Below are positions 14,018 to 18,869 of a stretch of DNA of 35,365 nucleotides, in pieces (within the stretch, counting starts at the first letter, position 1; every line of letters begins with the position of its first letter). Made by a program: the position numbers and the translations under genes. This DNA comes from Fibrobacter sp. (lineage in GTDB: Bacteria > Fibrobacterota > Fibrobacteria > Fibrobacterales > Fibrobacteraceae), in contig JAAYJH010000032.1 in the NCBI GenBank assembly GCA_012523035.1, positions 1 through 35,365 on the forward strand. The letters run 5' to 3'. The notes under the pieces were generated by a model. It was not told the DNA's origin and made no database searches. It saw only the letters and a program-made list of their open reading frames with translations.

Positions 14018-14659
14018 TCATTTTACTTTTAGTCGTTCCACATATTTAAATAAGTTGTGGTAAACTTCTAAAAAATCTTCTATCCAGATAGGATCCCTTT
14101 CACCAATGAGTGCAAATGTGTTTTCAAGAGTGTGTTGTGTGTTATAAAGTCCAATGTTTTGGTTTTGTTTTTTTTCACTTTTAGCGGGGTTGAAACTAAA
14201 TTTTCGAGCACGATAAGAGCGTTTTAACCTTGAGATTAGACTTAAACGAAGGGACAGGAGTTCTTCTCGGGCTTGCAGAAACTTAGATTCTGACAAGTAT
14301 CCTTCTACTTTTTCAATCCTAGAGAGCAAAACTTTTCGTTCAGGAGCAGGGATCAGGGTCTTTTTTGATTCTAAAGTATGTTTTAACTCTACAATTAACT
14401 TTTCTAAATAGGATTCAGTCCAAAAATTTATTTTTGGGTTTAGTAAGGTCTTTTTTTGGGAGCGATGGTCTTCATTTTTAAGAAACCACTTGTCCAAATT
14501 TGTTTTTAAAGTTTTAGCTTCAGAAACTCGCTCTATGGCTATAAAATCACGCATTCTTTGTAATAAAAAGTCTGCATAACTAAGCTTCCAATGCGGGATT
14601 CGATTGGATTTTCGAAGCCTATTTAATCTTTTTTGTGTTTCTAATAACTCATGCTTCAA
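14018..14659 (-). CDS. DUF2894-like protein, last gene of a MotA/MotB-type motor operon
   Basis: A 213-residue, very basic, helical cytosolic protein with no signal peptide or membrane segment. Its last 45 residues (GLYNTQHTLENTFALIG, then IWIEDFLEVYHNLFKYVE) resemble the C-terminal block of DUF2894 proteins (pattern GPLNS-LV-R-L--M-ELSP-YL--F--HV--L-WLE). That match is from memory of the family and should be tested by profile search. The N-terminal part is a likely coiled coil. The gene starts inside the end of the OmpA-domain gene (4-nt ATGA overlap), so synthesis is coupled. The molecular function is unknown; its place with a channel pair suggests an adaptor or regulator on the cytoplasmic side. 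Confidence 0.6.
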   Translation of the reverse strand: MKHELLETQKRLNRLRKSNRIPHWKLSYADFLLQRMRDFIAIERVSEAKTLKTNLDKWFLKNEDHRSQKKTLLNPKINFWTESYLEKLIVELKHTLESKKTLIPAPERKVLLSRIEKVEGYLSESKFLQAREELLSLRLSLISRLKRSYRARKFSFNPAKSEKKQNQNIGLYNTQHTLENTFALIGERDPIWIEDFLEVYHNLFKYVERLKVK

Positions 14660-15294
14660 GGCTTAAACTCCGATTTTTTCATGGGAGTCACTCCTATTTC
14701 AACTCGTCGATTCAAACGGCGATTTTCTTCACTGGTGTTAGGGTATTTAGGGTGAAACTCACCAAAACCCGCAGCAAAAAGCTTTTCTGGAGGAAATCCT
14801 TGCAAAATCAGAGTTTTTACCACATTCACCGCTCGTTCTGCAGACAAATTCCAATTGGTGTAAAGCTTTGATTTTATAGGGGTGTCGTCTGTGAAACCAG
14901 AAACCATAATCACATCTCCAGTGTCTAAGATATCTAATAATCCCTTTCCTATAGCCTCAATCACTCGAATCCCTTCTGGAGTAAGAGTAGCACCATTTAC
15001 AGGAAACAGTAAAGAAGCTTGGATTTGAATATTGCCGTTTTCTAGTGCAATGAGTCCTTTTTCAATGGTGCTTTTTAAGCTTGTCGAAAGCAAAGCATTC
15101 CTTTCAGAGGCAATTTTTCGCATTTCTTCTTGACAACTCAACACCTCTTCTTCTGTGCGTGTTAAATCCTCGACTTTTTGATCTTTTAAAGTCGCCATAG
15201 CCACAAAGGCTAAAATAAACAAAGACAACAAACCAATGGTTAAATCTGTAAATACAAACCAAGAGGCATTTTCTTCACTTTTGCTTTTACGCAT
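14656..15294 (-). CDS. MotB/ZorB-like OmpA-domain stator protein
   Basis: A 212-residue inner-membrane protein: short basic N-terminus, one membrane helix (about 12-30), a short helical linker and an OmpA-type peptidoglycan-binding domain (about 85-205). The helix begins SWFVFTDLTIGLLSLF, placing D17 where MotB and ZorB have the ion-carrying aspartate. The OmpA domain shows SGFTDDTPIKSK, NWNLSAERA, GFGE and NRRVEIGV, the usual peptidoglycan-contact pattern. With the MotA/TolQ-like partner encoded just upstream (1-nt overlap) it should form a 5:2-type ion-driven motor anchored to the cell wall. ExbD and TolR lack this OmpA domain, so a TonB/Tol role is unlikely. No flagellar gene is near. Confidence 0.85.
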   Translation of the reverse strand: MRKSKSEENASWFVFTDLTIGLLSLFILAFVAMATLKDQKVEDLTRTEEEVLSCQEEMRKIASERNALLSTSLKSTIEKGLIALENGNIQIQASLLFPVNGATLTPEGIRVIEAIGKGLLDILDTGDVIMVSGFTDDTPIKSKLYTNWNLSAERAVNVVKTLILQGFPPEKLFAAGFGEFHPKYPNTSEENRRLNRRVEIGVTPMKKSEFKP

Positions 15295-16916
15295 TAAAGC
15301 TCCGGTTTAGTGGTAGGTGAAACAGAAGCTCGTTGTGCATACTCTAAAACTTCTAATAAAATTTCTTGCGTTTTGACGGCGTTTTCTAAAAGCACTTCAC
15401 TCGCTCTTTCATGAAATGCCTGCAAAGAAGATTGCAATTGCTCTACAAAATTAAACTCTCCCTCGCGTTCTTTAGTATTGCCAGACAACTTATCTATCAC
15501 TAATTCAAAACCTTCTCTTAATGCTTCAATACTTGCAGAAAGTTCAGATTGATTCACTCGCATCATGGTCGCTGTCTCGGTCAAAGCGTTGGTCAGCACA
15601 GCTGCAGATTCTAGTTCTTTGCTGGTTTTAGCATCGACATCTACAATTAATTTGCTTTGTACTTCCATTAATTTTATAGACGATTCACTCATCTGCGTAA
15701 AGCTAGATTGAGTAGAGTCTTGAAGACTAGAAAGTAAAGCTTCCGATTTTTCGAAGAACTGACTCAAAGAATTTTGAAGTTCATTTCCTAAAGCTGAAAA
15801 TGTTTGTTGAGTGTCTGTGGTTAAACCGCTAAAAGCTGTGTTTATTGTTTCTGATAAAGACTCAAAATCCTGCTTTAAATTTTGTGACAAATTCGCCCAT
15901 TCAGTTTCTATGCTTTTTGCAAATAGAGTGCTTTCTTTTTGTGTTTCATCTACAATTTGTTTTGAAACTTGATGCATTAGAGCTAAACTTTCATTTTGTT
16001 TTTCTTGAGATTTTGATAAAGATTGAGAAAATTGATCTGCTAAATTTTGAATGGAGTTTTGAAGAGTTTCACTAGCAAAAGCTTCTGATGAAGACCAGTT
16101 TTTTTGAGAGGTTTTCAGAAAGTCCTCGAGTAAAACCCTTTGGTGCAAACTTGCATTTTTTAGCTCCTCCAAAGAATCTGTTTGCAAGCTTACAAAAGCT
16201 TCTGTCATCGTCTTTAAGTTACTTTTTTGAATTTCTTCAAACAATGATGTCAAAGAGTCAGCACTTGAATCTTTTGGAGTGTAAAATGGAATCAAATCCA
16301 CCAATGTGAAGCGATCTAACTTAGCTGCAAATCGTTCACTAGTTTTATCTGCTAATGCATGGGAAGCATTGAGTATTAATGCGGCAAAAAGTCCTGCTAA
16401 ACTAGTCCCAAAAATACCCTTCATATTAGAAAATATAGATTGAATGGAGGCAAAAGTATTTTGAGTGCTACTATTGTCCACAGCCAAACCAGCTGTTGAA
16501 ACCGCCAACATCAATCCAAAAAAAGTGCCCAATAAACCAAGCATCACCACCACTCCACCCATGCTTCGTCCTGGATGAATATCAGTTTTTGCATCTAAAA
16601 CTTCTGTAATCCACTGAGAAGAAAAAGAAATTTTTTTAGAGGATAACTCCTTTACGGTAGATATGCGTTCGGCAACCAGCTCCCCCTCTATCGAAGGAGA
16701 ATCAAAATTTTTAGAATATTTTTTTAACAAGTCTGTCTCTATTTCAATCTTTTGAATTAACTTGAAATCGGACCATTGTGAAAATAGAAATATCAAAATA
16801 ATTGCCGCAATAATGATAGAACCAAACAGAGGGGCTCCAAAGTAGAATGCACTTGCCAAAAGAGCTAGCAGGCCAAAAATAGTCAAGACTAAAATAAGTT
16901 TAGAAGAATATTTCAT
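15294..16916 (-). CDS. MotA/TolQ/ExbB-type channel protein with long coiled-coil tail (DUF802-like, ZorA-like)
   Basis: A 540-residue inner-membrane protein. Two N-terminal helices (about 6-26 and 30-46) are followed by a cytosolic stretch, then helix 3 (GGVVVMLGLLGTFFGLMLAV, 120-139) and helix 4 (GIFGTSLAGLFAALIL, 167-182). The LGLLGTFFG and GTSLAG motifs are those of MotA/TolQ/ExbB channels, with T131 and T171/S172 at the ion path. Residues about 205-540 are a long Ser/Gln/Glu-rich helical tail with heptad character, ending ERASEVLLENAVKTQEIL. From memory this arrangement and the tail end closely resemble proteobacterial DUF802 proteins; ZorA of the Zorya defence system also carries a long tail. 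It probably forms the pentameric ring around the OmpA-domain stator. What the tail contacts is unknown. Confidence 0.82.
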   Translation of the reverse strand: MKYSSKLILVLTIFGLLALLASAFYFGAPLFGSIIIAAIILIFLFSQWSDFKLIQKIEIETDLLKKYSKNFDSPSIEGELVAERISTVKELSSKKISFSSQWITEVLDAKTDIHPGRSMGGVVVMLGLLGTFFGLMLAVSTAGLAVDNSSTQNTFASIQSIFSNMKGIFGTSLAGLFAALILNASHALADKTSERFAAKLDRFTLVDLIPFYTPKDSSADSLTSLFEEIQKSNLKTMTEAFVSLQTDSLEELKNASLHQRVLLEDFLKTSQKNWSSSEAFASETLQNSIQNLADQFSQSLSKSQEKQNESLALMHQVSKQIVDETQKESTLFAKSIETEWANLSQNLKQDFESLSETINTAFSGLTTDTQQTFSALGNELQNSLSQFFEKSEALLSSLQDSTQSSFTQMSESSIKLMEVQSKLIVDVDAKTSKELESAAVLTNALTETATMMRVNQSELSASIEALREGFELVIDKLSGNTKEREGEFNFVEQLQSSLQAFHERASEVLLENAVKTQEILLEVLEYAQRASVSPTTKPEL

Positions 16917-16921
16917 TCGTT

Positions 16922-17836
16922 TTACCTAAAATCGTGGTTAAAAAAAGAATTTGCTCCAAATAAATCTAACTGTCCACGAGAAAAACCTCGCAAATACAAA
17001 GCCCATTTATCTTGGTACCATCGAGCCACTAAGAGACTGAGTCCCATAGCATAATCACAAAAATCATCGGTGTATGCTAAAAAAGGAGTCTCGTAAGCAC
17101 CATGCACATCCCAAGACTTGCCAACATATCGTGCACAACTTAAAGAAGAAGAAAAACTCCTATCTTTTGCTCTAGATTTAAAAGCAGAAGAAAATCGTTT
17201 ATAAGCTATTTCTGCCAAAGAACTTCTTAAAGTACCCAGTAAAACCGTTTCTTGCTCTCTCAAAGAAGCTTCTAAACAAGGCAATAACTTAGAAATTGGG
17301 TCCAAAGCTGCTTCTTTGTACCATATAGCACTCACTCTTTCTTGTAAATAAGATAAACGAGCCGTCATCATCACTAAAATCTTTTCTGCGTCTCCAACCA
17401 TCAAGTGTATTGTAGAAAAATACAAATTTTTAACATTGGAATTTGCTGTTTTTAATGAAAAAACCCACCCACTCTCTTCTTTGACTATCCAATTGCCTTG
17501 GACTAATTGTCGATGAATTTCTTCTAATGAAAATCGTTGTGCCCACTTGGAGCGAAACTCTTCAAACCTTTCTGTAAATTCTTCAATCAAAAGAGGAAAT
17601 TCAGTTTCCCAAAGTTTCCAAGCAGAGTTACTATAAGAAACCACCTCTGCCCCTACCATCGAGGAACTCGGATCCCTATCACTCGCCTCTAAATGCTCAA
17701 ACAACGCAATAGACCAAGCAGGACTCATATTTTGAGACAAATTCCCTACCACCGACGAACGATTAGGTCGTGAACTAAAACGGGCAATACTAGCACCTGT
17801 CATTTTTCGAATGGCTCTACGAAAGGAATTATCCAT
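16922..17836 (-). CDS. DUF3348-like protein, first gene of the motor operon
   Basis: A 304-residue cytosolic protein without signal or membrane segments. The segment at about 155-215 (LSYLQERVSAIW, ALDPISKLLPCLEASL, REQETVLLGTL) resembles DUF3348, whose core reads roughly LRxxVR...LAxLDAxxEqaL-xREqxLLaxVP-LL--RFexLR. This match is from memory and moderately confident. The C-terminal 60 residues contain an aromatic run (WYQDKWALYLRGFSRGQLDLFG). It is 5 nt upstream of the channel gene and leads the operon. Upstream is only a partial promoter match (TATATTTA ending 4 nt before the ATG), so the start or promoter remains uncertain. Function unknown. Confidence 0.6.
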   Translation of the reverse strand: MDNSFRRAIRKMTGASIARFSSRPNRSSVVGNLSQNMSPAWSIALFEHLEASDRDPSSSMVGAEVVSYSNSAWKLWETEFPLLIEEFTERFEEFRSKWAQRFSLEEIHRQLVQGNWIVKEESGWVFSLKTANSNVKNLYFSTIHLMVGDAEKILVMMTARLSYLQERVSAIWYKEAALDPISKLLPCLEASLREQETVLLGTLRSSLAEIAYKRFSSAFKSRAKDRSFSSSLSCARYVGKSWDVHGAYETPFLAYTDDFCDYAMGLSLLVARWYQDKWALYLRGFSRGQLDLFGANSFFNHDFR

Positions 17837-18053: not shown

Positions 18054-18869
18054 TTACAGTGCTTTTAGTTTCATCTTTTGTATAATATGGGTTTTTAAAG
18101 GATTTTGAAGCCCCTTCTCTTGTGACTCACCAAAAAAGGAGTTCATCTGAAGCTCTGCTTCTTCTATGATCCCTTCATTCACATTAAAAAGCAGCGTGCC
18201 AGTCCCTACACTAAAGTCACTCCATTTATTCGTATTTTTAAGATGGACTAGCTCTTTTTTATATTTTATATTCATACGAATTTTAGCAAATAAAACACCC
18301 TTCCTTTTGAATGAATCCTCTAAATGATAATTTTTATATACAGTGCTTTGCATATGATTTTCGTCGATAACAGCTTGCTGATTTTCCCAAGAGTCTCCCA
18401 CTTCCATTTTTTCTTTTAAAAATGTAGGGTAAATGTTAAAAAACATTTTAGAAACTTTTATTTTGTGAAAGGAATATGGAATTTCATCGCTTTCTGTAAC
18501 AGCATCTCCATGCAAAGCGTTTTTTTGTAGTGTAAGGTAAAAATTGAGTAAGCTAGCTTTTTGTTCATTATTGGTGACTTCTTCTGTTTTTTGTTTTAAA
18601 GTAGAATCTGCAAGGTCCACATTCATTAAAAAATGTGCAGACTCATCATCGTTTAAATGAACCAAAAGTGGATTTAAAATAAAGTGAGTGTTCAAGCCCT
18701 GGTGTTTCATAGAATCCATAAAAAGAGTGTCATCCAGCATCACCTCTAAACTCGTCTCTAAAGAAAAACTTTGATTTGCAAAATTATTTGCATTATAAAC
18801 TAAAGGAAGGGACTGATTTTTACAAGCAAACACAAGAAAAAAAGAAAATAACAAAATCAAACGATCCAT
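18054..18869 (-). CDS. Predicted lipoprotein, DUF6263-like
   Basis: A 271-residue lipoprotein: short signal peptide and lipobox VFAC with Cys at residue 16. The mature part is beta-strand-rich, with a central FLKEKMEVGDSWEN motif and a late GTGTLLFNVNEGIIEEAEL motif. This layout (P-x-V-GDSW followed by a G-G-x-x-F-D-x-x-x-G-x-I pattern) resembles DUF6263 lipoproteins of Bacteroidota, whose function is unknown. I hold that match only tentatively. No neighbour gives a clear role; tadA lies 45 nt upstream on the same strand. Confidence 0.68.
   Translation of the reverse strand: MDRLILLFSFFLVFACKNQSLPLVYNANNFANQSFSLETSLEVMLDDTLFMDSMKHQGLNTHFILNPLLVHLNDDESAHFLMNVDLADSTLKQKTEEVTNNEQKASLLNFYLTLQKNALHGDAVTESDEIPYSFHKIKVSKMFFNIYPTFLKEKMEVGDSWENQQAVIDENHMQSTVYKNYHLEDSFKRKGVLFAKIRMNIKYKKELVHLKNTNKWSDFSVGTGTLLFNVNEGIIEEAELQMNSFFGESQEKGLQNPLKTHIIQKMKLKAL

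Follow-up and report, generated by a model that had tools for sequence, protein, structure and literature searches.

Is a Zorya-like ion motor kept for its ion flow or for the proteins encoded beside it? The question is raised by a four-gene cassette on the minus strand of contig JAAYJH010000032.1 from Fibrobacter sp. (assembly GCA_012523035.1), of which the whole stretch of 35,365 nucleotides analysed here is called the window. The cassette encodes a ZorA-type channel protein and its ZorB-type partner between two soluble proteins. A preliminary description of the locus had read it as a non-flagellar rotary motor that is widespread and has two dedicated partners. We surveyed the cassette across Fibrobacterota and some Proteobacteria, most of the genomes being draft assemblies, and for much of the class Fibrobacteria the picture is reversed: the two partners and the tip of the ZorA tail are universal and the motor is not. 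The motor-less version of the cassette is new here. Since motor-less lineages keep the remainder of the cassette, the sequences suggest that the essential job is done by the two little-known partner proteins and not by ion flow, the motor being a removable drive.

The name Zorya type III was given in 2021 to the cassette DUF3348-DUF802-OmpA-DUF2894, a Stenotrophomonas copy of which lowered phage plating in E. coli (PMC8565338). Structural work on Zorya in 2025 covers types I and II, in which defence needs both peptidoglycan binding and ion flow, and merely mentions type III (PMC11890865), the least studied type. How the ZorA tail transmits motor action to the partner proteins is still an open question in Zorya. 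Type III has been shown to be highly conserved, core or quasi-core, in Ralstonia solanacearum (PMC13064858). Our literature search found no report of a type III Zorya cassette in Fibrobacter.

A Zorya-III-like operon

The cassette consists of four tightly packed minus-strand open reading frames (ORFs) at 14018-17836, encoding 304, 540, 212 and 213 amino acids (aa). The first two lie 5 nt apart, the second and third share 1 nt (..TTTAATGCG..) and the third and fourth share 4 nt (TTGA); these sizes and junctions agree with the earlier description. Purifying selection acts on all four among relatives, with pairwise ratios of nonsynonymous to synonymous substitution (dN/dS) of 0.03-0.22 where dS is unsaturated. 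Judged by its conservation the cassette is not a chance arrangement, because 89 of the 98 genomes that the window's family has outside two genera, labelled g5 and g8, carry full-length ZorB, the other nine genomes all being at most 88% complete.

The third protein is, by its motifs, a peptidoglycan-binding MotB-like partner with a predicted ion-carrying aspartate, D17. Its best PADLOC model is ZorB3 (2.5e-43), followed by ZorB1 (6.5e-22) and ZorB2 (3.8e-6), and it carries a PF00691 OmpA domain (7.4e-15). D17 and the peptidoglycan-binding motif residues do not vary when the protein is aligned with relatives from Proteobacteria and from another family of the order. The earlier reading of a MotB-like protein with one helix, D17 and an OmpA domain is correct.

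The second protein had been read as a long-tailed MotA/TolQ/ExbB-type channel, and both of its signatures, LGLLGTFFG and GTSLAG, are present. Its best PADLOC model is ZorA3 (5.8e-16), a score partly due to coiled coil, motor-less coiled-coil proteins reaching 1e-8 with the same model. Pfam MotA_ExbB scores 17.9 bits, short of the 22.9 bits that this model requires (E value 0.0026), and the sole motor-protein match among solved structures is a weak one, ZorA 8qyh (E value 0.0057). Within the window's family, identity to the window protein averages 0.68 over the channel (residues 121-180), is mostly 0.10-0.18 over the spacer (211-390) and reaches 0.57-0.61 at the tip (451-540). ZorA thus has two conserved islands, the channel and the tip, with a variable spacer elsewhere in its predicted cytoplasmic tail. 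The tip is co-linear by eye with the proteobacterial tip, though homology between the two is not significant.

The outer proteins escape the standard models. Pfam, NCBIfam and PADLOC models give no match above chance for those of the window and no real match for other members of either family; the PADLOC DUF2894 model is reached, at 0.019, by one of 17 fourth-gene relatives and not by the window protein. Isolated weak hits to JetB (0.001), Cas12 (0.0007) and JetC (0.005), in one member each, were treated as chance. AlphaFold2 predicts a confident helical bundle for the first protein (mean predicted local distance difference test, pLDDT, 87; predicted template modelling score, pTM, 0.83) and helical modules for the fourth (mean pLDDT 82, pTM 0.50). 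A fold search of the PDB returned nothing at E<=0.001 for either, and hydropathy revealed no membrane helix in the first or fourth products of the two genomes checked.

The check on these genes proposed in the preliminary description, profiles against DUF3348 and DUF2894, needed profile-profile comparison. By this measure the C-terminal module of the fourth gene is homologous to DUF2894 (E value 1.9e-4 over about 41 columns, with 0 of 60 column shuffles as high), the aligned module reading GPxN...DPxWxxDFLELY in Fibrobacterota and GPLNS...SPxYLxxFL in DUF2894. DUF2894 ORFs take seven of the top eight places when the Fibrobacterota fourth-gene profile is run against 502 ORFs from proteobacterial loci, and in the reverse search fourth genes fill the top seven places among Fibrobacterota ORFs. 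For the first gene, homology to DUF3348 is only suggestive: DUF3348 ORFs rank 1, 2, 4 and 5 of the 502 with a Fibrobacterota hidden Markov model, and the profile-profile match (E value 0.036) beats 60 of 60 shuffles at low probability. In PADLOC-DB 2.0 (PDLC00652-00658) the labels are swapped with respect to the papers, ZorF3 standing for DUF2894 and ZorG3 for DUF3348, which may confuse annotation.

All annotated proteobacterial loci that we read have the order DUF3348, DUF802, OmpA, DUF2894, identical to that of the window, and among annotated plasmids and chromids ZorB has its best relatives in Burkholderiales and Rhodocyclales. Together with the ZorB3 and ZorA3 models this agrees with the proposal that a proteobacterial architecture occurs here in a distant phylum. 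The role of that cassette, previously called not known, is partly known from the naming of type III and its effect on phage plating (PMC8565338). By profile score the window's motor proteins are of the type III kind. The cassette as a whole is best termed Zorya-III-like and not a certified member, because the defining models fail on its outer genes. It shares with type III the gene order and strand, a ZorB3-type MotB protein, a long-tailed ZorA and the homologous module of the fourth gene, but the family models do not recognise its outer genes.

Compared with types I and II, the cassette likewise has a long-tailed ZorA, a peptidoglycan-binding ZorB and the conserved aspartate in the ZorB helix, but its ZorB1 and ZorB2 scores are weaker and no ZorC, ZorD or ZorE occurs in the loci read. 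The absence of ZorC/D/E, Tol, TonB and flagellar neighbours had been noted before and stands; the conclusion drawn from it, that this is not a standard Zorya, does not, because the cassette itself is named Zorya type III and missing ZorC/D/E fails to separate the two. The MotAB, TolQR and ExbBD stators share the MotA/TolQ/ExbB channel signature and a MotB-like partner with the window, which differs in its long cytoplasmic tail with a conserved tip, its two dedicated soluble partners and the lack of a flagellar, Tol or TonB context. The long tail and separate operon do not fit a flagellar, Tol or Ton stator, and ordinary TolQ/ExbB-sized proteins are encoded elsewhere.

Motor-bearing and motor-less cassettes in the class Fibrobacteria

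We label the window's family f1, which includes the genera g5 and g8, its sister family f2, and other families of the class f3, f4 and f5. In f3, f4, f5, g5 and g8 the cassette is a contiguous three-gene operon of the first gene, a membrane-anchored protein and the fourth gene. At its N terminus the middle protein carries one or two helices (single in f4 and f5); it has a coiled coil, replaced by repeats in g5/g8, and the ZorA tail tip at its other end. This tip matches the window-family tip with 99.7-99.8% probability, and the tip is the only portion of ZorA that motor-less relatives clearly retain. Contiguous and often overlapping operons of this kind occur in 12 or more genomes from several genera, and in most of these the first gene, tip and fourth gene all match with high significance. 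No ZorA-like channel was found elsewhere in the motor-less genomes: the channel profile gives at best about 1e-5, or nothing, in frames of TolQ/ExbB size (211-261 aa), compared with 1e-78 to 1e-94 in motor-bearing genomes, and the ZorB profile matches only at the level of the OmpA domain.

The tree of the first gene, (f4, (f3, f5), (f2, (g5/g8, rest of f1))), agrees on the main clades with a tree of rpoB and RuvB. As placed by these trees, the motor-less state of g5/g8 is a nested loss, because these genera lie within motor-bearing f1 and the sister f2 also has the motor. The two N-terminal helices of the f3 proteins line up weakly with the first two transmembrane helices of ZorA, TM1-TM2 (score 18.0 vs 10-14 for decoys), which is suggestive only.

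The first gene is present in 51 of the 52 genomes of the class searched, the sole miss being 77% complete, and in none of 42 genomes from sister classes of the same phylum. A contig scan with a narrow first-gene alignment returned nine loci, eight from Fibrobacteres/Fibrobacteria and one labelled only 'bacterium', and on viral contigs the first gene had no relative. In the loci read the neighbours are housekeeping genes that vary by lineage (RuvAB, TadA, DNA polymerase III delta, ArgJ, thioredoxin), and neither mobile nor defence genes adjoin the cassette, so that the defence-island setting put up for checking in the preliminary description is not borne out by a class-wide core whose tree follows the species tree. 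By distribution and phylogeny the cassette is a vertically inherited, class-level core of Fibrobacteria, a finding new here; the patchy, mobile, defence-island pattern of anti-phage systems does not apply to it in this class. This class-wide vertical core with motor-less derivatives, known here from sequence, also sets it apart from Zorya type III.

The context of the motor-less cassette is partly conserved between f3 and f5 (L065, L066, L070-L072), including the genes for DNA polymerase III delta and ArgJ and, in some loci, a KaiC-like ATPase and a pseudouridine synthase. In g5/g8, proline-containing PKIEIPKIE-type repeats stand in place of the ZorA coiled coil and possibly form a stiff rod of another kind. 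In both f2 genomes (L061/L062, L063/L064) contig ends break the cassette inside the ZorA tail or the first gene; these cassettes were read as two halves, and the breaks perhaps stem from tail repeats.

A proposed conserved output and optional motor

We propose, with a probability of about 0.4, that the conserved unit of Zorya-III-type cassettes is a complex of the outer proteins on the ZorA tip and not the ion motor, and that in Fibrobacteria this unit performs a universal, non-defence task. The motor would be an optional drive that has disappeared one or more times, a plain membrane anchor taking its place. ZorA and ZorB would assemble 5:2 into a rotary unit that is driven by ions and attached to the peptidoglycan. 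The ZorA tail would hold its tip at a distance from the membrane that is set by the spacer, and the first- and fourth-gene proteins would dock on this tip and carry out the conserved output. Docking at the tip is proposed because first gene, tip and fourth gene are retained together with or without the motor. Ion flow would turn or tension the tail and so modulate the output, which a static membrane anchor could support as well. Cassettes that naturally lack the motor mark the tail tip as the likely docking site and dissociate the motor from the output. The studied Zorya types need ion flow, yet the cassette is retained here without a motor, which argues that the conserved task is not Zorya-style defence; we give an even chance to a housekeeping role coupling the envelope to a cytoplasmic process, as opposed to dedicated phage defence. 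If the proposal is true, Zorya III would have turned an older housekeeping machine to defence. More generally, a class-wide core Zorya-like system suggests that some systems classed as defensive by homology may do ordinary cell work.

Several points weigh against this proposal. Its case in Fibrobacterota is built on sequence-level evidence, docking on the tip is deduced from co-retention alone and the homology of the first gene to DUF3348 is only suggestive. The well-placed motor loss is that of g5/g8 only; in f3, f4 and f5 the motor may have been lost or may have been absent from the start. In E. coli, type III from Proteobacteria can block phage (PMC8565338), and type III is core or quasi-core in R. 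solanacearum (PMC13064858), and because it is both conserved and protective, core status alone does not exclude defence. It is conceivable, if somewhat unlikely, that the cassette is a constitutive type III Zorya defence fixed in the class, in which ZorB is engaged when phage damage the peptidoglycan, the tail is driven by ion flow and the outer proteins stand in for ZorC/D/E as sensors or effectors. The motor proteins do match type III models best, the gene order is that of the system active in E. coli, and the ZorB motifs for peptidoglycan binding and ion flow that types I and II need (PMC11890865) are conserved. A universal, vertically inherited, single-locus system is nevertheless unlike a typical patchy one, and many members keep the rest of the cassette when the motor is gone.

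The motor-less loci could also be read the other way round, the three-gene form being ancestral and the ancestor of f1 and f2 having gained the channel and ZorB from Zorya III. All of f3, f4 and f5 are motor-less and branch outside f1 and f2, and the f4 and f5 anchors are single helices, but Proteobacteria have the motor with the same gene order and a homologous fourth-gene module, the f3 helices align weakly with TM1-TM2, and g5/g8 is a nested loss; we hold this order of events to be unlikely, and it is compatible with either functional reading. That the motor-less loci are assembly artefacts, many of their genomes being drafts, or an unrelated coiled-coil operon is hardly credible given their contiguity in several genera and their highly significant matches. 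Improbable as well is a TonB/ExbBD- or gliding-like energiser of the envelope that would serve uptake, adhesion (to cellulose, for instance) or the mechanics of the cell surface. Fibrobacter adheres to cellulose, OmpA- and MotA/TolQ/ExbB-type proteins abound in its envelope proteome, and two lineages have a lipoprotein gene as a conserved neighbour of the cassette; yet the partners have no membrane helices in the genomes checked, the tail is predicted to be cytoplasmic, the operon holds no outer-membrane or TonB-like partner, the motor-less form could not energise anything, and no listed envelope-proteome protein was matched to the cassette. One candidate for ZorB, FSU_0151 (a 23.9 kDa OmpA protein from F. 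succinogenes envelope proteomics), was set aside for its misfit in isoelectric point and hydropathy, and no link is claimed.

Coordinates and the neighbouring lipoprotein gene

Table 1. Features of the cassette and its surroundings; positions refer to the window unless a locus is named
Feature	Position	Strand	Description
Lipoprotein gene	18054..18869	-	upstream neighbour of first gene; lipobox Cys16, weak DUF6263 match
First gene	16922..17836	-	304 aa; DUF3348-position protein ('ZorF' in the papers' naming); soluble helical bundle
Second gene	15294..16916	-	540 aa; ZorA-type MotA/TolQ/ExbB channel protein with long cytoplasmic coiled-coil tail (predicted)
ZorA channel island	16377..16556	-	residues 121-180 (LGLLGTFFG...GTSLAG)
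ZorA variable coiled-coil spacer	15597..16304	-	residues about 205-440
ZorA tail tip	15327..15578	-	residues 447-530 (MRVNQSELSASIEALREGF...FHERASEVLLENAVKTQEILLEVL)
Third gene	14656..15294	-	212 aa; ZorB-type MotB-like protein
Codon of D17	15244..15246	-	predicted ion-carrying aspartate in the single N-terminal helix of ZorB
OmpA peptidoglycan-binding domain	14707..15009	-	residues 96-196; NW.LS..RA and NRRVEI motifs intact
Fourth gene	14018..14659	-	213 aa, TTG start; DUF2894-position protein ('ZorG' in the papers' naming)
C-terminal GxYN...D.xW module of fourth gene	14051..14164	-	homologous (profile-profile) to DUF2894 GPLNS...SP.YL.xFL module
PKIEIPKIE-type repeats	L068 8519-9061; L069 7514-8020; L075 8974-9672; L076 7183-7812		

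The lipoprotein gene is conserved beside the first gene in f1 and in genus g15 of f3, an upstream position kept in two orders. Among the class members tested it is missing from g5/g8, f2, f4, f5 and genus g13 of f3. It does not occur in every lineage, and may be a helper, a possible accessory and not a defining part of the cassette. Distant homologues of the lipoprotein occur in other classes without the cassette.
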